From a virus: 64,000 bases of DNA. Every line of letters starts with the position of its first letter. The stretch's first letter is position 1. This document shows positions 19,396 through 57,991 of this stretch, piece after piece. The notes under the pieces are model-generated. The model was not told where the DNA came from. It did no database searches and saw only the letters and a program-made list of their open reading frames with translations. Where the stretch lies: IMG/VR virus record IMGVR_UViG_3300009594_000003, positions 21,652-85,651 of that record. The stretch is one strand, 5' to 3'. The translations under genes were made by a program, and so were the position numbers.

Positions 19396-19423
19396 CGCCC
19401 GGCCCGACATGTCGGGCCGGGCG
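19396..19423 (+). terminator. Hairpin terminator after the vWA gene
   Basis: Perfect 28-base palindrome built on CGCCCGGCCCGACA, followed by TTCTTGTATTT. Confidence 0.88.
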
Positions 19424-19431
19424 TTCTTGTA

Positions 19432-19459
19432 TTTACAGGCCAAAAACCAACACTACAAT
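19432..19459 (+). promoter_or_regulatory. Promoter TTTACA-N16-TACAAT upstream of pncB
   Basis: Identical hexamers and spacing to the pncA promoter. It lies right after the terminator and 21 bases before the pncB ATG. Confidence 0.7.
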
Positions 19460-19480
19460 GGTCGTGAAAGAAGGACCGCA

Positions 19481-20665
19481 ATGCTCAAATCGATTCTAGA
19501 TACCGACCTGTATAAGCTGACGATGCAGCAGGCGGTATTGGAAAAATATCCTGATGCCCACGCCGTCTATACTTTCACGAACCGAAGGAAGTCCGACAAG
19601 TTCCCTGATAAGTTCGAGGACTACTTGGTTTCCGGCCTCATGGCCTTAACTAAGGTGGCGTTGTCGCCCGGTGAGGCAACATGGCTCGCCACGGCTTGCC
19701 CCTGGCTCAAGTCCTCCTACATCGAGTACCTCCGCAACTACCGTTTCAACTCTTCGGAACTGTTTTTGAAAGTCAGGAATGACGATCTCACTATCACCAT
19801 CAACGGACCTTGGCACCGAACTATTCTGTGGGAAGTGCCGATGATGGCGATCATCAGTGAACTCTATTTTCAGCATGTAGTCACGGATTGGACGCACGAA
19901 GGGCAAGAAGAGAAGATCGCAAAGAAGGGTGAACTTTTTAAGGCAGAGCAGATACGTTGGTCGGACTTCGGTACTCGTCGCCGTCGCTCCTACAAATCAC
20001 AAGATCGTGTCGTCAACATCTTCAAAGGCAACCCATTCTTCAGCGGCACAAGCAACGTCCATCTAGCCCACAAGTACACTGTCCGGCCAATCGGAACTAT
20101 GGCCCACGAATGGATTATGGGCCACGCCGCTCTCTGCGGTCTGCGGTACGCCAACCGCTACGCCCTGCGTGCGTGGAACGATGTGTATCACGGCAACCTG
20201 GGGATTGCTCTTACCGACACCTACGGCACACCAGCTTTCTACAAGGACTTCGATGGCGTGTTAGCTCGTCTTTATGACGGCGTTCGGCATGACAGCGGTA
20301 GTCCCTTCGAGTTTGCCGATGCTGCGGTCGCTCATTACAAATCACTCAACATCAACCCAGCCCACAAGACCATCGTGTTCAGTGATAGTCTGGACCCTCC
20401 ATTGGCAGTTCAGCTTGCTCAGCGGTGCCGTCAACTAGGAATCAACGCTGTTTTTGGTATTGGCACGAACCTCACGAATGATTATGATAGTGGCAAGCCG
20501 CTGAATATAGTCATCAAACTGCGTTCACTGAACGGTGTCGAGGTCGTTAAACTGAGTGACGATCTCAACAAGGCGACCGGCGATAATGACGCCGTGCGTG
20601 TCGCCAAGTGGACGTTCTGCAATACACCGCTCGATAAGCCAGGAGTTCAGAGCTACAAGAGGTAA
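19481..20665 (+). CDS. pncB: Nicotinate phosphoribosyltransferase
   Basis: 394 residues, close to E. coli PncB (400). Collinear matches include LDTDLYKLTMQQAV at the N-terminus, GPWHRTILWEVPMMAIISE, WSDFGTRRRRS, FSGTSNVHLAHKY, GTMAHEW with the catalytic His region, LGIALTDTYGT, RHDSGSPFEF and FGIGTNLTND with PLNIVIKL. It makes nicotinate mononucleotide from nicotinate, PRPP and ATP. The match is to nicotinate, not nicotinamide, phosphoribosyltransferase, which fits the upstream nicotinamidase. AAGGA before the ATG at 19481 fixes the start. Five bases separate it from nadE. Confidence 0.9.
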   Translation: MLKSILDTDLYKLTMQQAVLEKYPDAHAVYTFTNRRKSDKFPDKFEDYLVSGLMALTKVALSPGEATWLATACPWLKSSYIEYLRNYRFNSSELFLKVRNDDLTITINGPWHRTILWEVPMMAIISELYFQHVVTDWTHEGQEEKIAKKGELFKAEQIRWSDFGTRRRRSYKSQDRVVNIFKGNPFFSGTSNVHLAHKYTVRPIGTMAHEWIMGHAALCGLRYANRYALRAWNDVYHGNLGIALTDTYGTPAFYKDFDGVLARLYDGVRHDSGSPFEFADAAVAHYKSLNINPAHKTIVFSDSLDPPLAVQLAQRCRQLGINAVFGIGTNLTNDYDSGKPLNIVIKLRSLNGVEVVKLSDDLNKATGDNDAVRVAKWTFCNTPLDKPGVQSYKR

Positions 20666-20670
20666 CTGAT

Positions 20671-22680
20671 ATGAACGACTTTGGCCTCGCACGCATCACC
20701 GTTGTCAGCCCGGAAGTCAAGGTTGGCAACCCAACATTCAATGCTTTCCAGGTTGCCGATGCGGTCAAGAAAAACCCTGGATCGCAAATTTATCTTTTCC
20801 CTGAGTTGGGGATTACCGGCTATACATGTGCCGATCTCTTCAACTCGGCTACACTTCTCGAACGGACTGTGGATAGTCTAGTCTGGCTCAGCGAGCAGAC
20901 GTATATGAATGACGCCTTCGTTGTGGTCGGTTTACCTGTCAAAGCAGACGGCAGCCTCTACAACTGTGCCGCCGTTATTCACGCCGGGAAAATCCAGGGT
21001 CTCATCCCCAAGCAACATCTCCCGACGTACAAAGAATTCTATGAACGTCGTTGGTTTGCCCCAGCTACCGGCATGGAATCCAGGGCCATCAAGTTCGGGA
21101 ATCTCTACATTCCTTTTGGTATCGATCTACTTTTCGAGGATGAAAACCACCCCAACATCCTCATTGGAATCGAGATTTGCGAGGATGTGTGGACTGTCAT
21201 CCCGCCCAGCAGCTATCAAGCCTTAGCCGGGGCAACGATCCTCCTCAACCTCTCTGCCAGCAATGAAACAGTCGGCAAGGCCTCATATCGCCGTGATCTG
21301 GTTCTTAACCAATCTGGCCGCTGCATCGCTGCATATGCTTATGCCAGTTCTGGCTGGACAGAATCTACCACCGATCTAGTTTTTGGTGGTCACTGCATGA
21401 TTGCCGAGAACGGTTTGATGCTTACGGAAACCCCCAAGTTTGAGCGGTCGGCAATGATTACTGCGGATGTTGATGTCGAAAAGCTGGTGCTGGAACGTGA
21501 ACGCACTTCGAGCTTTGCTGACAACAAACGTCGGCAGGCTGTTCCGTTCCGCATCTTCCGAATAGCTCTGGAACAGCGGGGCGACGATAGGCTTATGCGG
21601 AGCGTGAATCCTCACCCCTTCGTTCCGCATAACACCAAAGAACTAGACGAACGCTGCAAGGAGATTTTTGGCATCCAGACTCGTGGCCTTGCAAAGCGAA
21701 TCGAAACAGCCAATGTCAACCGCATGGTAATTGGTGTCTCCGGTGGTTTAGACTCTACGCTCGCTCTCTTGGTTGCAGCCAAAGCGTGTGATCTAGTTGG
21801 CAAGCCGCACAGTACCATCCTGGGGATTACCATGCCGGGTTTCGGCACAACAAGCCGGACCAAGAACAACGCCATCAAGTTGATGGAAGCATTGGGCGTC
21901 GAGCAGAAAACCATCGACATTCGCCCGGCTACCCTTCATGCCCTGTGTGATATACAACACAGGCCATTCGGGATTAAACTTGAAGCTCACTACCCGTATC
22001 CAGGCAGTGCGGTTGAAGCGTTGCAGGCACAACTTGCCAACCTGCCACACGACAATCGCCACGATCTGGTGTTCGAGAACGTCCAGGCTAGACTCAGGAC
22101 GTTCCTGTTGATGTCGCATGGTTTCGTCGTCGGCACAGGCGATCTATCGGAGCTTGCCCTGGGCTGGTGTACGTACAACGGCGATCACATGTCGATGTAC
22201 AATCCCAACTGTAGCATCCCAAAAACACTGGTGAAGTTCCTTGTGGAATATGTTGCAGAAAACGAAGTGAGAAACTTTGTTAACAGCGACAACACTCTGG
22301 TGGACATCTGCAAGACAACAATTTCTCCCGAACTGTTGCCAGCGGGTGCGGATGGCAACATTCTACAGTCCACCGAGGATGTTGTCGGCCCCTACGAACT
22401 GATTGACTTCTTCATGTTCTGTATGATCCGGTGCGGATACGGGCCGAAGAAGACTTTGTACCTCGCCGAACACGCTGAGTTCAATACAAAGTACACACGA
22501 GACCAACTGAAAAATTGGTTGAAGGCTTTCTATTTCCGGTTCTTCTCCTCGCAATTCAAGCGGTCTTGTGTGCCTGACGGCCCGAAGGTCGGGTCGGTTT
22601 CTCTGTCGCCGAGAGGCGACTGGCGTATGCCCAGCGATGCTGATGTATCAATTTGGGTCAGCGAGGTTGACGAAGCATGA
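20671..22680 (+). CDS. nadE: Glutamine-dependent NAD+ synthetase
   Basis: 669 residues, the usual length of two-domain NadE. The N-terminal amidase has the Glu-Lys-Cys triad: Glu in FPELGITGY (about residue 45), Lys in IPKQHLPTYKEF (about 112), Cys in GIEICEDVW (about 169). The C-terminal synthetase has the ATP loop VSGGLDST near residue 357 and the ELALGWCTYNGDHM block near 500. It converts nicotinate adenine dinucleotide to NAD+, using glutamine as amide donor. The stop overlaps the PP2C start (ATGA). It is the last step of the salvage route encoded here and is intact. Confidence 0.92.
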   Translation: MNDFGLARITVVSPEVKVGNPTFNAFQVADAVKKNPGSQIYLFPELGITGYTCADLFNSATLLERTVDSLVWLSEQTYMNDAFVVVGLPVKADGSLYNCAAVIHAGKIQGLIPKQHLPTYKEFYERRWFAPATGMESRAIKFGNLYIPFGIDLLFEDENHPNILIGIEICEDVWTVIPPSSYQALAGATILLNLSASNETVGKASYRRDLVLNQSGRCIAAYAYASSGWTESTTDLVFGGHCMIAENGLMLTETPKFERSAMITADVDVEKLVLERERTSSFADNKRRQAVPFRIFRIALEQRGDDRLMRSVNPHPFVPHNTKELDERCKEIFGIQTRGLAKRIETANVNRMVIGVSGGLDSTLALLVAAKACDLVGKPHSTILGITMPGFGTTSRTKNNAIKLMEALGVEQKTIDIRPATLHALCDIQHRPFGIKLEAHYPYPGSAVEALQAQLANLPHDNRHDLVFENVQARLRTFLLMSHGFVVGTGDLSELALGWCTYNGDHMSMYNPNCSIPKTLVKFLVEYVAENEVRNFVNSDNTLVDICKTTISPELLPAGADGNILQSTEDVVGPYELIDFFMFCMIRCGYGPKKTLYLAEHAEFNTKYTRDQLKNWLKAFYFRFFSSQFKRSCVPDGPKVGSVSLSPRGDWRMPSDADVSIWVSEVDEA

Positions 22681-27259: not shown

Positions 27260-27946
27260 ATGATCGATTTCGGCTTCAAGGAGTACCTTCAACTACAAGA
27301 GATGGCGGCGAGAAAAAGCCTCGCTAGAAGTCTTGAGAAGTGGATGGACAACATCGACAAGCCGGTTGCTGTTTTAACTGCGTTCCGAAGCGAACATGAC
27401 CTGGAAACGAATCGAAAGAGAAACGAGGAACTGGTCAAGGACTTGACGGCTGCCGGTTTGAGCCATTACCCTGTAACAGGACAAGGCCAGGAGATCAAGC
27501 GATGGGCATTCCTTTTCCGAGTAATCGAACCAACGAAAGAAGAGTCCTTTGTGGTCCAGCCACGAGGCGAAATGAGCGATACGGTATTCGTTAGCACTAT
27601 CCAGGGGTTGATGAACACCTACAACCAGGATTTCGTGGCAATGAAATTACCAAGCAGTCCTGATGCTTTTCTACTTGGGAGAAATGGGAATAGAGAACCA
27701 TTGGGTCGAAGTGCCCATCCAAGAAGAGAAGAAAACCCGTTTTACTCAGAATTGCTCAAAGGAGTAAGAACGCCGCCCGAACAAATGAGCGGATGGGAAA
27801 GAACGGGAGAAAGAAGTCTGGTACGTCGATTCATCAACTGGCTGAGGGGCAGGTCTCATATGAACCACCCAGTCCCAGCCGATGAAAGAGGCGGCAGAAG
27901 ATTCGTAGTGGGCGATGCACCCAAACACCCACAGGGAAATGCGTAA
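27260..27946 (+). CDS. Unknown protein with capsid-targeting-like N-terminus
   Basis: 228 residues. It begins MIDFGFKEYLQLQEM, matching the recurrent N-terminal motif with LQE as a possible cleavage site. The middle part (AVLTAFRSEHDLETNRKRNE, ELVKDLTAAGLSHYPVTGQG) looks like small phage DUF3293-type domains, from memory. The C-terminus is basic and disordered. No ribosome site is visible; ATAAATA ends 4 bases before the ATG. A 1-base overlap (TAATG) couples it to the next gene. Confidence 0.55.
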   Translation: MIDFGFKEYLQLQEMAARKSLARSLEKWMDNIDKPVAVLTAFRSEHDLETNRKRNEELVKDLTAAGLSHYPVTGQGQEIKRWAFLFRVIEPTKEESFVVQPRGEMSDTVFVSTIQGLMNTYNQDFVAMKLPSSPDAFLLGRNGNREPLGRSAHPRREENPFYSELLKGVRTPPEQMSGWERTGERSLVRRFINWLRGRSHMNHPVPADERGGRRFVVGDAPKHPQGNA

Positions 27947-44396: not shown

Positions 44397-46754
44397 ATGG
44401 CGATTATACAGGGATTTCCGCCTTCTAACACGATCAGTCCTAGCGTGAGAATCACGGAGAAAGACCTTAGCTTCGTTCCGCCAGAACCTAGCTTCCACCG
44501 TGCGGCTATCGTAGGCTTTGCGTCCAAGGGACCGATCAACGTGCCTACCGTTATTAGGACGACCAGACAGCTACACACGGTATTTGGTTATCCGCATCCT
44601 GACGTGGGTGATCCGTACCTAATCTACGCAGGTGAGATTTATCTGCTAGTGTCCAACGAACTATATGTTCTGCGTGTTGGCGATGAAGACGAAGTAAGCG
44701 ACGAGCGTGCCGCAACCGCCGAGGTTGCCGTGCCGTCTGCTGGTGGTCAGATCATTATTCAGGGTAGTGCCACTCAAGGTGCTGGTTTCGTATTTCCTAC
44801 AGACCAGTTCTTCAGATGGAGACTAAACGGTGTACTTGCCTCCAAGACTCTCTTGGTAGACTCTGGCACTTACACCGCACTACAGTTGGTTGAGAATTTG
44901 AATGACCAACTAGCTCCTGGCATCGACGGTATCGAGTTCTTCGTATCCGGTACTGGTGCTGCCAGCAAGGTCGGCGTCAGAACCACTTTCGCCTTCGGCC
45001 CAACCGCCGAGCTAGAGTTGGTATCCATCATCGACGCCCTCTATGGACCAACCAGTGTTATCGGCATGGGTCTAGGTATGACCAAAGCTGTAAGCACTGG
45101 CACCGAGAACTGCTATCCAGATAACGGTTCGGGCTGCACCCCAGACACTTGGGACTTCACCGGCCTAACCTCACTAACTCTGAAGATAGTGGTTGACGGA
45201 ACCGACAACGTATTGATTGACAACGTGGTACAAACGGTTGATCTAACCTCTTTAGTTGGTAACGTTCGTAACTCCAACGACATTGTGACTGCTTTGAACG
45301 ACGCCGTAACTGCTGGCGATGTTCCTGGTGGTTGGACCGCTACCGAAGTTGCGAACGCCGTTCGCATCAGCACCAACCATTCTGGTCGTGACGCCCGCTT
45401 ACTAGTCAAGACCGGCACCAACGGTGCTACGATCCTTGGCTTCGACGGCACAACTGCAACTGGTGCATCTCTAGTGAGAACCACTGGTGCGGTTGACATC
45501 GATCAGGCTGCACGAGTCAACGGTGCCGCTAACTCGACCGGCGAAGTTACCTTCACCATCAAGGCCGACAGCCCTGGTATCGAAGGCAACCAGACCGACA
45601 TAACAATTGTCAATGACGTAAGAGAAAACGTATTCACCGTTGAAGTCTTGAACAACAACGTACAGGTAGAGGTCTGGGGTAACTTGACCAAGGACCAGAC
45701 CAATAGGTTCTATGTAGAAACCTTCCTGTCTCTAGTATCCGACTTCGTGCGTTGCACAGACGTTACAACCAACCCAGCACCGCCAGCCGATGGCACGTAT
45801 GCCCTAGCAGGTGGTAGCGACGGTATTCCTGCCGACCCAGACAAGCAGGACGAGCTAATCATCGGAAGCGACATCGCCTTCACCGGTATGTACGCCTTCT
45901 CCGAGCCTGAGCAGATTGACATCGATCTAATCGCTGTCCCAGGTCACTCGTCTACTTCGATTGTGGTCGAGCTACTTAGACTATGCCAGCACTTCAGACA
46001 GGACGCTATGGCGATCATCGACGCACCGTTCGGCCTGACCGTGAAAGAGATTGTCCACTGGCAGAACGGCTCGCACCCATTGAACACCACTAGATTCGAC
46101 TCCGATTTCGGTGCCCTCTACTGGCCGTGGTGCAAGTACCGTGACAATCACAACAGAGTCGATGTCTGGATTCCACCATCGGGTCCAGTCATGGCGGTAT
46201 ACGCAAGAAGCGATAGCTTCGCTGCACCGTGGTTCGCACCAGCCGGTGTCAACCGTGGTCTAGTTCCAGCCATCAGTGACGTATTTACTCGTCCAACTCT
46301 CGCCGAGAGAGACCTGATGTATGGCAACAGAAACGCAGTGAACCCAATCGTACAGTTCGCAGACTTCGAGGGCTTCGTGGTCTGGGGTCAAAAGACTCTA
46401 CAAAGAAGACCAACAGCACTGGATAGAGTGAACGTCAGAAGATTGATGTTCGTCATCGAGAAGAGAATCAGAACCGCTTCTAGACAGCTATTGTTCGATC
46501 CACACGACGAGCAGTTCCGTCAGAAGTTCATCTCCATCGCTGACACGATCTTGAGAGAGATTTCCGTAGGTCGTGGTATCAACGCCTACATCATCCAGGC
46601 TGACGAGGAACTCAATACGCCGGATGTCATCGATAGGAACGAGTTCCGTGCAAGAATCGGTATCCAGCCGATTAGAGCGGTCGAGTTCATCTTCGTTGAG
46701 TTTAGCATCCACCGCACAGGTAGCTTCACTCAGACTACTGAGGCGGGAACGTAA
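44397..46754 (+). CDS. Tail sheath protein, gp18-like
   Basis: 785 residues. The N-terminus PPSNTISPSVRITEKDLSFV and AAIVGFASKGPINVPTVIRT, TRQLHTVFGYP is the contractile sheath signature. The C-terminal domain has YPWCKYRDNHN-like 'YWPWCKYRD', FAAPWFAPAGVNRG, and RTASRQLLFDPHDEQFRQKF, all typical of T4 gp18-type sheaths. A large variable insertion (about residues 100-480) is likely surface exposed. The protein forms the contractile outer tail. GGAGA precedes the ATG; a hairpin follows the stop. Confidence 0.92.
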   Translation: MAIIQGFPPSNTISPSVRITEKDLSFVPPEPSFHRAAIVGFASKGPINVPTVIRTTRQLHTVFGYPHPDVGDPYLIYAGEIYLLVSNELYVLRVGDEDEVSDERAATAEVAVPSAGGQIIIQGSATQGAGFVFPTDQFFRWRLNGVLASKTLLVDSGTYTALQLVENLNDQLAPGIDGIEFFVSGTGAASKVGVRTTFAFGPTAELELVSIIDALYGPTSVIGMGLGMTKAVSTGTENCYPDNGSGCTPDTWDFTGLTSLTLKIVVDGTDNVLIDNVVQTVDLTSLVGNVRNSNDIVTALNDAVTAGDVPGGWTATEVANAVRISTNHSGRDARLLVKTGTNGATILGFDGTTATGASLVRTTGAVDIDQAARVNGAANSTGEVTFTIKADSPGIEGNQTDITIVNDVRENVFTVEVLNNNVQVEVWGNLTKDQTNRFYVETFLSLVSDFVRCTDVTTNPAPPADGTYALAGGSDGIPADPDKQDELIIGSDIAFTGMYAFSEPEQIDIDLIAVPGHSSTSIVVELLRLCQHFRQDAMAIIDAPFGLTVKEIVHWQNGSHPLNTTRFDSDFGALYWPWCKYRDNHNRVDVWIPPSGPVMAVYARSDSFAAPWFAPAGVNRGLVPAISDVFTRPTLAERDLMYGNRNAVNPIVQFADFEGFVVWGQKTLQRRPTALDRVNVRRLMFVIEKRIRTASRQLLFDPHDEQFRQKFISIADTILREISVGRGINAYIIQADEELNTPDVIDRNEFRARIGIQPIRAVEFIFVEFSIHRTGSFTQTTEAGT

Positions 46755-46835: not shown

Positions 46836-47393
46836 ATGGCTGATATGGGACTAGGAAGACTTGGCGATCAAAGGCTAGTCTTCAAGCGAAAGTTCAGATG
46901 GACGTTTGAAGTCCAGAAGGTCTGCGGTGGGCGAACCATTCCGAAGTTCTTCGTCAAGTTGGCTTCCCGTCCGAATCTGACTATCGAGGAAACAGAAATC
47001 AACTTCCTACATGCCAAAACCTGGATTCCGGGTAAGGCATCCTGGGAAACTATCACAGTCACGTACTATGACATTTCTACCACCGACCTTGGCCCACTAT
47101 GGGACTGGTTGGCTACCGTCTATGACTTCACTGACCCACAGGGCTTGAAAATGGGTTCCAACCGTGAATCCTATGCTGCCCAGGGCATCCTGTTGATGTA
47201 CGACGGTTGCGGTAAAGAAATGGAACAGTGGACTCTCAACGATATGTGGCCGCAGGCCGCTAACTTCGGCGAGCTTGATTATTCTAGCTCTGAAGAGGCA
47301 ACCATCGAACTTACGTTGAGATATTCTCAAGTCAAGTACGAACCAAAGAACGGCTGCTCGCCAGCACCGAATCCTTGCTGCAAGGGCTGCTAG
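46836..47393 (+). CDS. Tail tube protein, gp19-like (copy 1)
   Basis: 185 residues. FKRKFRWTFEVQKVCGGRTI, RPNLTIEETEINFLHAKTWI, PGKASWETITVTYYD and NFGELDYSSSEEATIELTLR are the tube fold pattern of T4 gp19-type proteins. It polymerises into the inner tail tube. AGGAG precedes the ATG. It is about 65 percent similar by eye to the next gene. The C-terminus is Cys-rich (CSPAPNPCCKGC). Confidence 0.85.
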   Translation: MADMGLGRLGDQRLVFKRKFRWTFEVQKVCGGRTIPKFFVKLASRPNLTIEETEINFLHAKTWIPGKASWETITVTYYDISTTDLGPLWDWLATVYDFTDPQGLKMGSNRESYAAQGILLMYDGCGKEMEQWTLNDMWPQAANFGELDYSSSEEATIELTLRYSQVKYEPKNGCSPAPNPCCKGC

Positions 47394-47471: not shown

Positions 47472-48095
47472 ATGCCTATCAATATGGGTATTGGACGTTT
47501 GGGGTTCAATAACCTGATCTTCAAGCGTAAATTCCGATGGACATTTGAGCTATACGACATCTGCGGAGGTAGAAGAATTCCTCCTCACTATGTCAAACTA
47601 GCTGCTCGTCCAAACCTGACCATTGAAGAAACTGAAATCAACTATCTTCACGCTAAAACATGGCTTCCGGGGAAGGCGTCCTGGGAGACTATGACTGTTA
47701 CCTACTACGACATTGCTACCATAGATGTGAAGCCGCTATACGATTGGTTGGCGAGCGTCTATGAATTCACGAACCCCGTTACTCTAAGAATGGGGTCCAC
47801 TCGTAGAGATTATGCCGCTAAGTCGCTTCTCTTCCTTTACGACGGATGCGGACAAGAATTGGAGCGGTGGAGAATGTCTGATGTGTGGCCTCAAGCCATC
47901 AATTTCGGAGAGCTAGATTATTCTTCGTCCGAAGAAGCTACTATAGAACTGACTCTGCGGTATTCTGAAGTGGAATATACTCCTCTCTGTCCACAGTTCG
48001 CTATCCAGCCTTGTTGTTCACCGTGCAATCAGTCATCTTCTGGGGCTACTGGTGGAAAGCTTCCGAACACTGGTAGTAACGTAGGATTGCCGTAA
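47472..48095 (+). CDS. Tail tube protein, gp19-like (copy 2)
   Basis: 207 residues, closely related to copy 1: FKRKFRWTFELYDICGGRRI, RPNLTIEETEINYLHAKTWL, PGKASWETMTVTYYD and NFGELDYSSSEEATIELTLR. It has a longer C-terminal tail (QPCCSPCNQSSSGATGGKLP). It arose by duplication and may occupy a special position such as the tube end. AAGGAG precedes the ATG. Confidence 0.83.
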   Translation: MPINMGIGRLGFNNLIFKRKFRWTFELYDICGGRRIPPHYVKLAARPNLTIEETEINYLHAKTWLPGKASWETMTVTYYDIATIDVKPLYDWLASVYEFTNPVTLRMGSTRRDYAAKSLLFLYDGCGQELERWRMSDVWPQAINFGELDYSSSEEATIELTLRYSEVEYTPLCPQFAIQPCCSPCNQSSSGATGGKLPNTGSNVGLP

Positions 48096-48146: not shown

Positions 48147-48659
48147 ATGGCAAGAAACATGGGTCTTGATTTTGGTCTAGAAGGCCAGCAGACCTGTATC
48201 AAGAGAAGATTCCGTTGGCTGTTCAAGATACCAGATGTATCCGCCAGCGGCACGAATTCTCTTCCTCCAGACAAAGGTGCGAGGCCCTCAATGAGCTACA
48301 AAGAGCTTCAGGTCGAGCATCTAAATGAGACCATCTTCTACCCTGGCAAGCCAGATTGGAAGCCGGTCAACCTTGTGCTGTTTGATCTGAAGAAGAACCA
48401 ACACCCTGTCTTCAAGTGGCTCAAAGAAGTATACAACCCATGCGACGGCAAATACAAGCCGTCAGGTACTCCACAATTCAAAAAGACAGCCACCCTTGAA
48501 CTCTATGACGGCTGCGGCAACCTTCTCGAAGAATGGAGATTCGAGAACGTATGGCCTCAGAACGTAGAGTTCGGAGAACTGGACATGGGCAATGCAGAGT
48601 ATGTGACTTGTGACATCACATTGCGATACGACAGAGCTTTCCTCTCGGACGCCTGTTAG
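48147..48659 (+). CDS. Tail tube-like protein (copy 3, divergent)
   Basis: 170 residues sharing the tube pattern with copies 1 and 2: IKRRFRWLFKIPDVSASGTN, ARPSMSYKELQVEHLNETIF, YPGKPDWKPVNLVLFDLK and FGELDMGNAEYVTCDITLRY. The divergence suggests a specialised tube or tube-cap role. GAGGA precedes the ATG. It overlaps the convergent small gene by 4 bases. Confidence 0.78.
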   Translation: MARNMGLDFGLEGQQTCIKRRFRWLFKIPDVSASGTNSLPPDKGARPSMSYKELQVEHLNETIFYPGKPDWKPVNLVLFDLKKNQHPVFKWLKEVYNPCDGKYKPSGTPQFKKTATLELYDGCGNLLEEWRFENVWPQNVEFGELDMGNAEYVTCDITLRYDRAFLSDAC

Positions 48660-50671: not shown

Positions 50672-52108
50672 ATGAAAGAAAAGGTTATTCTACCGTTGAT
50701 TGCGTTCGTCGGCGTATTCTCACTGCTATACGTCGCTGGGCCGGCCAACAAAACTATCCAACAACCGCCAGTACATCAACAACCGTTTTGGCCGATTCAA
50801 CCACCAGGACCGATAGACCCTCTACCTTTGACCCGACCGCAGACACCACAAATCTCGGTCAAAATTCCGCCCTACCTCGCCTACCTAAAGGTCGTAGATC
50901 AGATAAAGAAGTGGAATCAGGAGGCACCTGATCTGACTGAAGTAGGCACCTATGGTAAAAGCACCAGAGGGACAGACCTCTATTACATCAGGGTGACGAA
51001 CAAGCTCAACACACAGCCTAAACCCAAAGTGTTGATTCATGCCTGTATTCACGGCAATGAACCACTGTCTACATCAGTTATGATGGGCTACATAGGGACA
51101 ATCTTAGAGGAATATGGCAAAGATCAGGCCGTTACTGAGTTACTAGACACTCGTGACATCTACTTCGTGCCGATCATATCACCCGACAGCCACCCGAACA
51201 GCAGGCATGTGGATGGCGTGGACCCCAACAGGAACTATCCAACTGAAGCCGATCCCAGCAGGAAATCGGTTGCTCCAGTACAAGCAATCCGTGAGTTCTT
51301 CCTAAAGCATCAATTTAAGGCCGTAATATCAGCACACACCTGGGGTAGAGTCTTCCTCATCCCTTACGGCGACAGGGACGCCAAATGTCCAGATTGGGAC
51401 GCCTACCAGAAGATCGTCGGCGAGATGGGCAAGATGTGTAACTACAGGATGATTCGGGCCTTCGATATGTACAAAGCAAACGGAGGGTTGAACAATCCGC
51501 CGATCAGGGTCGCTGGTGAGGAGCCGCCGTACCCCTGCTGCTACAACATGCCAATCTTTGGAAGTGAAGTGGATTGGTACTATAAAAACGGTGCATTCTC
51601 CAGTAGCCAAAATGGGGAAATTCATCAAGGTGCTTTTAGCATAGTCATGGAGATGGGTACGCACCAACGTATTCCTTCCATGCAGGACATAAAGACGGAG
51701 TTTGATATGACGTTCCGTGCCGTCCTCCACTTCATCAAAGAAGCTCCCCTCGTGGAGATATGGTGGAAGAACGGCCAGCCAGTAAACCGAGACGGCACAC
51801 CAAAGAAAATCGCTTTGAGAACTGCGGCCACAGACTATGATACTATATGCAACGGAAATCATACGAACGAGTACATGATGACGGACATGGCATCATCCGT
51901 CTCGGCAATATATCCCTCAACGACGAGAGCGTATTACCAGAAGTGGCTACTGGAGTTCTCGATAGTGATGGAGATGGGTACTCACCAGCGAATACTATCT
52001 GATGCGGATACCAAAGCTGAATTCGACAAAACTTACCGAGCTATATTGTTGTTTATTCAAGAAGGAGCGATTGCCCGCAAAAGTTATCTTGACATTCTGC
52101 TGCGATAG
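50672..52108 (+). CDS. M14 zinc carboxypeptidase with duplicated C-terminal segment
   Basis: 478 residues. An N-terminal membrane or signal segment (about 4-22) and Pro-rich linker precede an M14 domain: HACIHGNEP gives the HxxE zinc ligands (about residue 124), DPNRNYP follows, SAHTWG gives the third ligand (about 220), and FSIVMEMGTHQR carries the catalytic Glu (about 324). It should trim C-terminal residues of peptides, possibly peptidoglycan stems. The segment FSIVMEMGTHQRI...FDMTFRAVLHFI recurs at about residue 429 as FSIVMEMGTHQRI...FDKTYRAILLFI. The export signal suggests envelope action. Confidence 0.78.
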   Translation: MKEKVILPLIAFVGVFSLLYVAGPANKTIQQPPVHQQPFWPIQPPGPIDPLPLTRPQTPQISVKIPPYLAYLKVVDQIKKWNQEAPDLTEVGTYGKSTRGTDLYYIRVTNKLNTQPKPKVLIHACIHGNEPLSTSVMMGYIGTILEEYGKDQAVTELLDTRDIYFVPIISPDSHPNSRHVDGVDPNRNYPTEADPSRKSVAPVQAIREFFLKHQFKAVISAHTWGRVFLIPYGDRDAKCPDWDAYQKIVGEMGKMCNYRMIRAFDMYKANGGLNNPPIRVAGEEPPYPCCYNMPIFGSEVDWYYKNGAFSSSQNGEIHQGAFSIVMEMGTHQRIPSMQDIKTEFDMTFRAVLHFIKEAPLVEIWWKNGQPVNRDGTPKKIALRTAATDYDTICNGNHTNEYMMTDMASSVSAIYPSTTRAYYQKWLLEFSIVMEMGTHQRILSDADTKAEFDKTYRAILLFIQEGAIARKSYLDILLR

Positions 52109-54598: not shown

Positions 54599-55735
54599 AT
54601 GGCCGATGAGAAAACATTTCGTCCACAACGAAAGAGCATAGCACCTTCAGAGGTATCCAATGAAGGGCAAGAGGCATTGCAGGCCGCACAAAACATTCGT
54701 GAAGCCGCCGCTACCGAGGTAGGCGAAGCAGTAGATCACCCAGGCGGTGGATTCCAAATCCAGGGCAATATGCCTCCAGAGTTCCAGGCTGCTCTAGCCA
54801 AGAACAGAAACCCCCAGGCTCAGAATGCCGACTTCGGCACAACCCAGAAGGAATCCAAAATGTCTCCCACCAGGAGACCAACTCCTGTAGCACCACCAAA
54901 CACCACCATGCGTGTAACTGGTAGTGCTAGATTAGAAGAGTTGATTAACAACGCCAAGCAACATCACGTAACCTGGGAAGAACTCAAACTCCCGTCTAAG
55001 GGCGTGTTCTATAACGGCGATGACGGGCCTACTGACGGCATTATCCACGTTAGACCGATGACTGGAGAAGAAGAACAGATTTTGGCTACCCCCAGATTCG
55101 TGAAGAAGGGGCAGGCTGTGAACATGATCTTCAACCGTTGTATCAAGGAAGGGTTTGATTCATCCAACTTCTTGACGGCTGACAGAACCTACCTTCTCAT
55201 TTTCCTCCGTGGTATTTCGTATAGCCCGGATTACGATGTCGAGGTCAAGTGTCCGTTCACCGACAAACAGTTCACCACGACGATCAACCTAGCTACGTTG
55301 TTCCTCGAACAGTGTCCTTTGAACTTCGGCCCACAAAGCCTGCAAGGAACACTGCCGACCACCGGCTACAACTTCACCTACAGACTGCCGACTGGTGCTG
55401 ACGAGCAGAGGATTCAGGAGTACCGAGATCACAAGGCGAAGTTCGATGTCGGCAACAATTCCGACGACACCCTGATCTACAGGACCGCCTTGCTATTGAA
55501 CGACATCGAAGGTCTGACGGACAAGAGTGAAATACAAGAACTCTTGCGTCACCTACCTATCGGCGACGTAGCTCACTTGAGGAACTGTGTCAACGAGCCT
55601 CCGTTCGGTGTGGATACCAAGGTGAGTATCATCAGTCCGTTCAACATGGAAGAGTTCGAGCTAGAATTACCGCTCGAAGCAAATTTTTTCTTCCCAAGGG
55701 CAAGGAAGACGACCCAGAATACGACCCAAGCATAG
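54599..55735 (+). CDS. Baseplate protein, T4 gp26-like
   Basis: 378 residues. After an Ala/Pro/Gln-rich N-terminus (about 110 residues), ELKLPSKGVFYNGDDGPTDG, HVRPMTGEEEQILATPRFV, NMIFNRCIKEGFDSSNFL and LIFLRGISYSPDYDVEVKCP match the T4 baseplate family containing gp26. It should belong to the baseplate hub or its assembly. GAGGAG precedes the ATG. Near its 3' end an AAATTTTTTC slippery stretch may let ribosomes shift by -1 into a 78-codon extension. Confidence 0.72.
   Translation: MADEKTFRPQRKSIAPSEVSNEGQEALQAAQNIREAAATEVGEAVDHPGGGFQIQGNMPPEFQAALAKNRNPQAQNADFGTTQKESKMSPTRRPTPVAPPNTTMRVTGSARLEELINNAKQHHVTWEELKLPSKGVFYNGDDGPTDGIIHVRPMTGEEEQILATPRFVKKGQAVNMIFNRCIKEGFDSSNFLTADRTYLLIFLRGISYSPDYDVEVKCPFTDKQFTTTINLATLFLEQCPLNFGPQSLQGTLPTTGYNFTYRLPTGADEQRIQEYRDHKAKFDVGNNSDDTLIYRTALLLNDIEGLTDKSEIQELLRHLPIGDVAHLRNCVNEPPFGVDTKVSIISPFNMEEFELELPLEANFFFPRARKTTQNTTQA
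55681..55687 (+). promoter_or_regulatory. Putative -1 programmed frameshift site (A AAT TTT)
   Basis: The heptamer A-AAT-TTT is in the X-XXY-YYZ register of the baseplate gene. After slipping, the -1 frame stays open for 78 codons to 55923. In frame 0 the stop comes 15 codons later at 55733. The -1 frame has no convincing start site of its own. Confidence 0.6.
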
Positions 55736-55923
55736 AGCTTTGGCAGTCATTGATGGAGGAGATATTCTTCTTCCAGTATCATCTACACCTGAGCAGAGAC
55801 GACTGCATGGTGATGCCGATCAACGAACGCAAGTGGATGATCGAGCGTTTCATCAAGCAGAAGCAGCGTGAAAACGAGGCTATGGAAGCTGCTCGCAGAA
55901 AGGCTAAGTCGAAGGCAAGATAA
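55687..55923 (+). CDS. Frameshift extension of the baseplate protein (assembly-chaperone-like)
   Basis: The -1 frame reads FLPKGKEDDPEYDPSIELWQ, SLMEEIFFFQYHLHLSRDDC, MPINERKWMIERFIKQKQRE and a basic coiled tail. The composition and the short helical shape resemble the second half of gpG-GT or P2 E-E' tail assembly chaperones. An ATG at 55753 exists, but only a weak ribosome site precedes it. Expression as a fusion of about 441 residues is inferred. Confidence 0.6.
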   Translation, partial: FLPKGKEDDPEYDPSIELWQSLMEEIFFFQYHLHLSRDDCMVMPINERKWMIERFIKQKQRENEAMEAARRKAKSKAR

Positions 55924-55926
55924 GAC

Positions 55927-56661
55927 ATGGCAACCAAAGAGAGAAACCAAAATGCAGTTGCAGGAGACACGCTCACACTGAGACAGTTCTTCTACAACTC
56001 CAATAACTTCGCCGATGTGATCAAAGTCGAGAAAGTAGAAATCTACTTCTTCGACAAAGAAGAAATCACTGAGGAGAACCCAAAGGGACTTCGTTTGGTA
56101 GAGACTATCGATGGTTCTCTTGTAACTCATGATGAAACTGGCAAGTACAGTGCGGTTCTAACGCTGGACGGCAGGTACGGCATAGGCAAGTATACAGACG
56201 TATGGACGGTGAACGTCGAAGCAACTCACCCGAAGATCACCATCAACGCCGGTTTCAATGTCTACTCCAACCTGTGGTATTCATCTCCTTCGCCCATAGT
56301 ATATGACTTTAACTTCCGGTTCCGACCAAACAAACTCAAGATAGGTTCCAAGCGTCACCTAATCATTGAAGTAGAACCCAACGTACCGACTGGCTCCAAT
56401 CTGGCGAAGTATTATGAAAATCTCGCCATAGCATCTCCCTTGAGAATTTCAATAGAACAGGCGTGTGGACCCTGTTTGCCAGAGGAGCAAGATTTAAGAC
56501 TTATAGTTGACAGAGAATCTGTGGACTATAGAGATAAGGGCCGAGGGTTCTACTTCTTTGATACTTCGGAGCTAGACTGCGGAATCTATAATGTCTGGTT
56601 TGAAATGGAGTTCGGCGGAAATACATACATTTCCGACAAGCAGCAGTTGCAGATTTACTAG
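55927..56661 (+). CDS. Structural protein of the baseplate region
   Basis: 244 residues, beta-rich: TLTLRQFFYNSNNFADVIKV, GRYGIGKYTDVWTVNVEATH and YDFNFRFRPNKLKIGSKRHL suggest Ig-like or jelly-roll domains. It follows the frameshift extension by 3 bases and precedes two more tail genes. No specific homologue recognised; a baseplate or fibre-attachment role is likely. Confidence 0.55.
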   Translation: MATKERNQNAVAGDTLTLRQFFYNSNNFADVIKVEKVEIYFFDKEEITEENPKGLRLVETIDGSLVTHDETGKYSAVLTLDGRYGIGKYTDVWTVNVEATHPKITINAGFNVYSNLWYSSPSPIVYDFNFRFRPNKLKIGSKRHLIIEVEPNVPTGSNLAKYYENLAIASPLRISIEQACGPCLPEEQDLRLIVDRESVDYRDKGRGFYFFDTSELDCGIYNVWFEMEFGGNTYISDKQQLQIY

Positions 56662-56694: not shown

Positions 56695-57447
56695 ATGAGA
56701 AATTCCTGGCTAGGCGACTACTATTTCAACATCCTGCAAAGCCCAGAGGCTTTCAGAGCGGCACTCGATCAATACATAGAATGCCCAGATGAAACTGCAA
56801 TAGCCAAATTGGAAGGTGTGTTGCGATGTCTATTAGGCATCGTCCTAGAAAACCATAAGCCGCCGATTGAAATATGTTCTGGAGGGTGCAACGAATGCAT
56901 TGTCGATTGCCTCAATCGAGCTAGAAAATGTGATTGCTCACCGGCAAAGTATTTCACCGTAGTAATGCTGAGGCATCTACGTCAATACGTCCAGCCAACC
57001 GCCGCCCCGTCTGATAAGGATTTCAATTGGTTCGCTACGATCAACGACGGTCGTATTTGCTTCTCCATTCCTGTCCACCCATATAACTTACCTGAAAAAC
57101 TAGCTTCCCAAAGCGATGTCGAACTACTGATTATCAACGATGGCTCCCCCTTCTTCACGCCCTTCTCCCGCTGGCTATCAAGCTCCTACAAATACCCACA
57201 ACTAGCAGACATCACAATCACTTGTTACGACAAAGAAGGTAAAATCCGGAAGTCTGTCTTGCTACAAGACGCCAAGCACACCAAAGTTTCTATGCTAGAC
57301 CCAGAATACTTCTCTTCATCAACACTTGGAATGGAAATCATGTTCAACTACAGAAAGGCATTATATGACGATGAAAAATTACTGGCTAGACATGGACAAA
57401 GCCGAAAAAAGACGCAAGCTCAAATGGCAACAAGAGAGGGAGCATAG
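56695..57447 (+). CDS. Putative baseplate protein with Cys-rich segment
   Basis: 250 residues. The ATG at 56695 has GAGGAGG 8 bases upstream, better than the ATG at 56674. The middle has CSGGCNECIVDCLNRARKCDC, a Cys cluster. The C-terminal part (ITITCYDKEGKIRKSVLLQD, LDPEYFSSSTLGMEIMFNYR) resembles the end of the tube fold seen in the three tube genes. The 3' end overlaps the next gene by 83 bases. Confidence 0.5.
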   Translation: MRNSWLGDYYFNILQSPEAFRAALDQYIECPDETAIAKLEGVLRCLLGIVLENHKPPIEICSGGCNECIVDCLNRARKCDCSPAKYFTVVMLRHLRQYVQPTAAPSDKDFNWFATINDGRICFSIPVHPYNLPEKLASQSDVELLIINDGSPFFTPFSRWLSSSYKYPQLADITITCYDKEGKIRKSVLLQDAKHTKVSMLDPEYFSSSTLGMEIMFNYRKALYDDEKLLARHGQSRKKTQAQMATREGA

Positions 57448-57991
57448 AGACGCCGAACAAATAAAAAAGGCCAACCTCAAAGAAGTCCATATAGAGCCGC
57501 CGAAAAAAGGAGAGAACACAGTAAAGACAAATCTGAATGAAGAGAAACGCATCTCAATAGGGATGCAGGATCACCCAGGATTCAAAGCCAACTATGTCTG
57601 GCCCCGCTCGTTCCGGTTCTTGCTGACTCCGAAATCCCGTCCTGAACTCCAATACTTCTTCAGGAATGTAGAAATCAACTACGCCTGGAAGTCTCTAGAA
57701 CTACAAATCTACGATACCACTGACGGCACCGCCCACGATTGGGTTCAGTACCTACTCGAAGAAAATGCCAAGAAACACGAGGAACTGAAATTGATCATTG
57801 TAAATAGTCTGGGAACGCCGTTGTACCGTTACAGATTCTCCGGTCTCCAGGTTGTGGCCCACGACCTGAAATTCGATTACGAATCGAGCGACGTGGCTAC
57901 ACACACCATTTTACTTGAGTTCAAGAACATGCGGAGATCAACGGTCGTGCATCCAAAGAAAGCCAGTGATCTAGATTTTCTGATCCACTAG
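57365..57991 (+). CDS. Baseplate tube-like protein (gp54/gp48-type fold, tentative)
   Basis: 208 residues. A basic coiled N-terminus (DKAEKRRKLKWQQEREHRDA) precedes a beta domain: WPRSFRFLLTPKSRPELQYF, NVEINYAWKSLELQIYDTTD, LYRYRFSGLQVVAHDLKFDY and ATHTILLEFKNMRR. This is the tube-fold pattern and may represent a tube-initiating baseplate protein. AAAGG precedes the ATG at 57365; a second ATG follows at 57371. Confidence 0.5.
   Translation: MTMKNYWLDMDKAEKRRKLKWQQEREHRDAEQIKKANLKEVHIEPPKKGENTVKTNLNEEKRISIGMQDHPGFKANYVWPRSFRFLLTPKSRPELQYFFRNVEINYAWKSLELQIYDTTDGTAHDWVQYLLEENAKKHEELKLIIVNSLGTPLYRYRFSGLQVVAHDLKFDYESSDVATHTILLEFKNMRRSTVVHPKKASDLDFLIH

Follow-up and report, generated by a model that had tools for sequence, protein, structure and literature searches.

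The gp26-like gene of the window, the 64,000-nucleotide stretch of DNA from a huge T4-like phage analysed here and part of a virus record of 85,651 bases, very probably gives rise to two forms of a tail assembly chaperone (TAC) by -1 programmed ribosomal frameshifting, a short form of 378 aa and a long form of 441 aa. The features involved are listed in Table 1. The site, its register, its conservation, the selection on the extension and the homology are established by sequence. That the shift is ribosomal, and how efficient it is, are points that we infer. Most ribosomes would stop at 55735 and produce the short form (TAC-N). A minority would shift back by one base at U UUU UUC (55684-55690), where tRNA-Phe would re-pair in both the P and A sites, and would produce the long form (TAC-NC), which ends at 55923. 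The predicted fusion consists of 364 + 77 residues, and its junction reads ...LPLEANFF followed by LPKGKEDDPEYD... A -1 frameshift at the 3' end of this gene had been proposed in a preliminary description of the window, and the proposal is supported by a frozen slip site and an open -1 frame.

Table 1. Positions of the proposed frameshift elements and of the neighbouring tail genes in the window
Feature	Position	Strand	Evidence or remark
gp26-like gene, putative short chaperone form (TAC-N), 378 aa	54599..55735	+	PF12322, phrog_150, predicted core fold
Slippery heptamer T_TTT_TTC (U UUU UUC), proposed -1 frameshift site	55684..55690	+	Conservation, synonymous freeze
Overlapping heptamer A_AAT_TTT, also in slippery register	55681..55687	+	Present in the window, not conserved
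-1 extension (putative TAC-C, gp51 C-terminus-like), 77 aa after the slip, and TAA	55690..55923	+	Conservation, selection, profiles
ATG inside the extension, rival internal start	55753..55755	+	Not conserved, without Shine-Dalgarno
Next gene, 244 aa	55927..56661	+	ATG begins 3 bases past the extension stop
Tail sheath gene, same tail module	44397..46754	+	phrog_23, E 1e-73
Three tandem gp19-like tail tube genes	46836-47393, 47472-48095, 48147-48659	+	phrog_4542, E 6e-30, 2e-26, 6e-25

Near the 3' end of the gp26-like gene, the 0-frame reads ...GCA AAT TTT TTC TTC CCA AGG... and terminates at TAA 55733-55735. The heptamer T_TTT_TTC lies in the X_XXY_YYZ register of this frame, 16 codons upstream of the stop and not 15 as originally counted. 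No stop interrupts the -1 frame until TAA 55921-55923, which lies, as had been described, 3 bases before the ATG of the next gene at 55927. Relatives of the locus were collected from viral contigs as 80 loci, the best 80 of 167 matches. In all 80 of them, TTTTTTC is present in register near the gene end, and the -1 frame is open for about 170-240 nt beyond the gp26-like stop. The preliminary description had made its proposal depend on the conservation of a slippery heptamer in relatives, and one is kept in every member of this set. Removal of identical extensions from these best 80 matches leaves 57 distinct sequences, the window's own included, in which the -1 extension is open and conserved. 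The slip motif itself was used in the selection of the 57 sequences, and no locus was lost thereby, the motif being present in all 80.

The heptamer named at first, A_AAT_TTT, is indeed in slippery register, but it is not the conserved element; T_TTT_TTC is. The bases 5' of the T run vary among the relatives, in which the codon at this position is AAT, GGT or AGT, and CAATTTT, AAGTTTT and GGGTTTT are all seen. A_AAT_TTT is absent from a good part of the 80 relatives, so it is not needed and was rejected as the functional heptamer. In the codon alignment of the 57 sequences, the two slip codons are always TTT and then TTC, whereas other invariant amino acids vary freely in codon use. The codon before them encodes Asn, Gly or Ser, yet it always ends in T, and TTC also serves as the third Phe codon in 55 of the 57 sequences. 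On the tree of these sequences, not a single synonymous change is counted at TTT, at TTC or at the third base of the preceding codon, as compared with 11-20 changes at each of 14 other invariant two-fold codons of the gp26-like gene. This arrangement is far beyond chance. An upstream stop codon in the -1 frame is located two sense codons before the slip in 35/57 sequences, and the -1 frame is therefore entered at or near the slip. Within the window, an A/T-type heptamer is found in register in the last 25 codons of 4 of the 34 plus-strand ORFs scanned; conservation in relatives was tested only at the gp26-like gene among these 4 ORFs.

The extension is under purifying selection. In the -1 frame beyond the 0-frame stop, pN/pS is about 0.3 (0.31), with synonymous sites near saturation, and it is 0.10/0.38 in the 31 least diverged pairs. 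The core of the extension reads LW..LAEEIFFFQYHLH...M.LPIN.RKWMIERFI.QK. The same arrangement, with its frozen heptamer and its extension under purifying selection, recurs in 57 distinct sequences from independent assemblies. A sequencing error, a decayed gene or a chance open frame is already refuted by this conservation, and the probability of such an origin is negligible. DUF6760 (PF20546) was rejected as the identity of the extension; the window extension scores 21 bits against a curated cut-off of 27, and weak matches to this family are found in 4 of 22 extensions. A search of 392 genomes of one phylum yielded a single doubtful match, with an internal stop, and thus no link to contractile injection systems. 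A match to PF11176 (Tma16) lies above its cut-off, but it is taken as compositional, as expected of a charged helix, because only 5 of the 22 extensions match.

The downstream frame might instead be a separate small gene, which starts at its own ATG at 55753 and is expressed by translational coupling. This ATG is present in the window, and a start codon is located at the gp26 stop in the distant relatives 121Q (TAATG), L122 and L126, in which re-initiation may serve. Against this explanation, no start codon is conserved in the extension. Neither ATG, GTG nor TTG precedes the core motif FFFxYH in 20 of the 57 sequences, and 16 others contain before it only TTG or GTG, at shifting positions. A start codon with a Shine-Dalgarno-like word 5-15 nt upstream precedes the core motif in 1/57 sequences, as compared with 37/57 for the ATG of the next gene. 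The conserved LW..LAEE segment is located upstream of any common start, and a separate gene leaves the frozen heptamer unexplained. Independent initiation is therefore excluded as a general mechanism by the lack of a conserved start and the single case with a Shine-Dalgarno-like word; internal initiation is refuted in this role. Expression only from the ATG at 55753, which the preliminary description had itself set against the frameshift, is likewise contradicted by the 20 startless sequences and this single case. A separate gene is thus most improbable as the explanation of the -1 frame.

Slippage of RNA polymerase on the T run, rather than of the ribosome, could also place the -1 frame in continuity with the gp26-like gene, at the level of the mRNA. 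Every one of the 57 sequences contains the six-T run that this explanation needs, but the run is exactly 6 in 57/57 and never longer. Polymerase slippage in bacteria usually requires a longer run. In addition, the C that follows the run never changes, even though TTT would encode the same amino acid, and this fits the decoding register U_UUU_UUC; homologous lineages with a +1 extension use sites that are not homopolymeric. Polymerase slippage is therefore very unlikely, and ribosomal frameshifting is the preferred explanation.

The region around the slip site was also searched for stimulators. Segments of 80 nt fold slightly better than their shuffles (mean z -1.3; 25 of 57 below -1.5). No conserved downstream RNA structure is found in the 57 sequences, in which two stems compete. 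A single conserved stimulatory stem was rejected as a candidate, since pairing of the RKK codons with the FFF codons is seen in 24/57 and an EE/FFF stem in others, with no consensus. Nor is an upstream Shine-Dalgarno stimulator conserved; SD-like GGAGG is present 4 nt 5' of the slip site in only 7/57.

The gp26-like protein belongs to a family that is named baseplate hub in databases. It matches PF12322 (T4_baseplate) with 43.8 bits against a curated cut-off of 24.5 (E 3.2e-11) and phrog_150 with E 4e-15, and an identical protein is encoded on a 122.7-kb IMG/VR contig (L001). An AlphaFold2 model of its core, built from a 56-sequence alignment, has a pLDDT of 91. Among the PDB chains re-examined by VIA-align, the best match of this model is the HK97 tail assembly chaperone (2ob9_B), with a middling Z of 6.0, 88/104 residues aligned and an rmsd of 3.2; the next row has a Z of 3.8. 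Plain Foldseek with the core model gives nothing significant, and the PDB sequence search with the gp26 profile gives only zinc-finger matches over about 20 residues. The model thus suggests, with moderate confidence, that the short form has a TAC-type fold, and the HK97 family is the one expected.

The genes are arranged in the order sheath, tube, gp26-like, extension and tape measure in phages SP-15, LIS04 and Flavobacterium immuto. In the window, about 6 kb separates the end of the tube genes from the gp26-like gene downstream, and no tape measure gene is identified. The next gene (55927..56661) has no Pfam match and only a sub-significant PHROG match. The gene order in relatives, the short/long design and the HK97 fold match support a chaperone function of the gp26-like locus. 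The suggestion that the frameshift product is the missing chaperone-type product gains support from this fold match and gene order, and from a profile link to T4 gp51. By analogy with lambda gpG/gpGT, the part common to both forms would bind the tape measure protein, the extension would recruit tube subunits, and both forms would leave before the virion is complete. In lambda, the short part acts on the tape measure, the extension recruits tube subunits and both leave (PMC5009743).

It might be argued that the frameshift is real, but that the protein is a structural part of the baseplate hub and the extension a minor capping domain. The database names agree with such a role, and older genetic work put T4 gp26 in the hub (PMC3004832). 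The HK97 chaperone fold match and the tube-TAC-TMP gene order in relatives argue against it, as do the requirement for T4 gp51, which is nevertheless not in the particle (PMC3004832), and the chaperone assignment of 2022 as cited in PMC10885494 and PMC12846349. A structural hub part is therefore quite unlikely, and a chaperone is the preferred identity. PMC3004832 lists T4 gp26 and gp51 among the hub assembly chaperones and describes gp51 as essential and missing from the particle.

T4 gp26 and gp51 are both full-length members of PF12322, and gp51 is longer by about 45 C-terminal residues. In profile comparisons, each E-value of which stands for one comparison, the T4-like small-ORF extension profile matches the gp51 C-terminus with E 8.8e-9, the profile of the wider extension set matches the gp51 C-terminus with E 1.1e-6, and the window-clade extension profile matches the wider extension set with E 1.1e-11. 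In controls, 0 of 50 column shuffles scored as high in each of the three comparisons. The window-clade extension compared directly with gp51 gives no significant profile match, and the link runs through intermediate families. Through these intermediates, the window extension appears to be homologous to the gp51-specific C-terminal segment. A model of T4-type gp51 gives no informative PDB match. T4 gp26 would then correspond to the short form and gp51 to the long form, with frameshifting replaced by duplication and in-frame fusion. T4 would thus obtain its two forms from two genes, gene 26 for the short form and, for the long form, gene 51, a paralogue that carries the extension as an in-frame fusion.

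T4 gp26/gp51 resembles the window gene in its membership of PF12322 and phrog_150 and in the pairing of a short form with a long form that carries an additional helical segment at its C-terminus, but it differs in the use of two genes instead of one gene and a proposed frameshift. Lambda gpG/gpGT is comparable to the proposed window chaperone in that -1 slippage close to the end of the short gene yields, at low frequency, a C-terminally extended long form. The lambda slip site, however, is G GGA AAG, and the tail is that of a siphovirus. P2 gpE/gpE+E' is a contractile-tail chaperone encoded between the tube and tape measure genes, and its -1 extension overlaps the short gene at the 3' end. The P2 order FI, FII, E/E+E' and T is the order in SP-15, LIS04 and immuto, and a similar short H...M...E...W pattern is seen by eye. 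P2 differs from the window in its families, PF10109 and PF06528, and in the length of gpE (91 aa), and direct profile comparison with P2 E' gives no significant match. The TAC of Vandenendeviridae and Andersonviridae (phage Adele) likewise belongs to myoviruses and has a conserved poly-T slip motif, which is GTTTTT, unlike T_TTT_TTC in the window, and its -1 extension is annotated as a separate hypothetical gene (PMC12846349).

Frameshifting of the G-T type was described in 2016 as widely conserved, with T4 excepted (PMC5009743). According to PMC10885494 (2024) and PMC12846349 (2025), gp26/gp51-type genes are identified as T4-like tail assembly chaperones by Vladimirov, Gautam and Davidson (2022, Virology 566:9-15). 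The former cites this work for T4-like phages in which a short chaperone gene is accompanied by a long, fused one, and the latter credits it with poly-T slippery sequences in T4-like TAC-N genes. On this account, the 2022 work probably noted frameshifting members already, and the statement of the preliminary description that no frameshift had been described at the gp26/gp51 locus is out of date. What may be new are the +1 members and the picture for the superfamily as a whole.

The design recurs in other PF12322 phages of the wider T4-like family, where a -1 extension is found behind T_TTT_TTT in Stenotrophomonas phage RAS14 and Xanthomonas phage XacN1, behind T_TTT_TTC in Agrobacterium phages Atu_ph07 and OLIVR6, E. 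coli phage 121Q, Vibrio phage 2.275, cyanophage S-RIM8 and Aeromonas phage 65.2, and behind T_TTT_TTG in Sinorhizobium phage phiM9. Viral contigs scanned with the RAS14 protein yielded no relatives. In S-RIM8, OLIVR6 and phiM9, the -1 ORF bears the annotation gp51, baseplate hub assembly catalyst; in Aeromonas phage 65.2 it has none. The gp51-annotated ORFs of phiM9 (L134, 3154), S-RIM8 (L135, 3232) and OLIVR6 (L136, 3220) are -1 frame fragments of the putative gp26 frameshift product, and their public annotations begin at internal start codons.

The extension lies in the +1 frame in Bacillus phage SP-15, Listeria phage LIS04, Streptococcus phage GXN1, Microcystis phage Mel-JY01, LR756508, Flavobacterium phage immuto, Rhodothermus phage RM378, an Erysipelotrichaceae MAG contig (L131), the IMG/VR loci examined among L111-L125 except L122, and L127. 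In many +1 members, YUU_UGG occupies the position near the gp26 3' end where a shift site would be expected. This sequence is seen in the +1 loci L111, L114-L117, L119, L120, L125, L127, L083, L138 and L139; the Bacillota-linked SP-15, LIS04, GXN1 and Erysipelotrichaceae MAG (L082, L086, L087 and L131) have a +1 extension without it. YUU_UGG, that is U UUU or CUU U before UGG, is a possible conserved +1 frameshift site, and it is plausible as such by analogy with RF2. L122, L126 and 121Q may re-initiate at the start codons on the junction.

The chances are about even that frameshifting is ancestral for the two-form chaperone in the whole T4 superfamily and that the decoding mechanism has changed at least twice. 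If so, huge phages, cyanophages, rhizobial phages and Rak2-like phages would have kept the -1 shift on U UUU UU[C/U/G], SP-15-like, Flavobacterium, Microcystis and Rhodothermus phages would use a +1 shift, often at YUU_UGG, and T4 would have exchanged frameshifting for gene duplication and in-frame fusion (gene 51). Reading the gp26-like gene as a single frameshifted chaperone would correct its annotation in many T4-like and huge phages, where it is named baseplate hub and its extension is a separate small gene or is not annotated. With this reading, T4 gp51, which is essential but obscure, would gain a clear counterpart in the long form, and the -1, +1 and duplicated versions would form a natural series in which the control of tail assembly by the short-to-long ratio could be studied.

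Some other genes of the window may be mentioned. Besides the three tube paralogues behind the sheath gene, a weak gp19-like match is located at 57326-57991. Adjoining nicotinamide phosphoribosyltransferase-like and NAD synthetase-like genes at 19409-22680 form an NAD salvage pair. An S-adenosylmethionine lyase-like protein (PF23780), possibly a counter-defence gene product, is encoded at 27260-27946. The zinc carboxypeptidase (PF00246) encoded at 50672-52108 repeats FSIVMEMGTHQRI at its C-terminus, which suggests a partial internal duplication.
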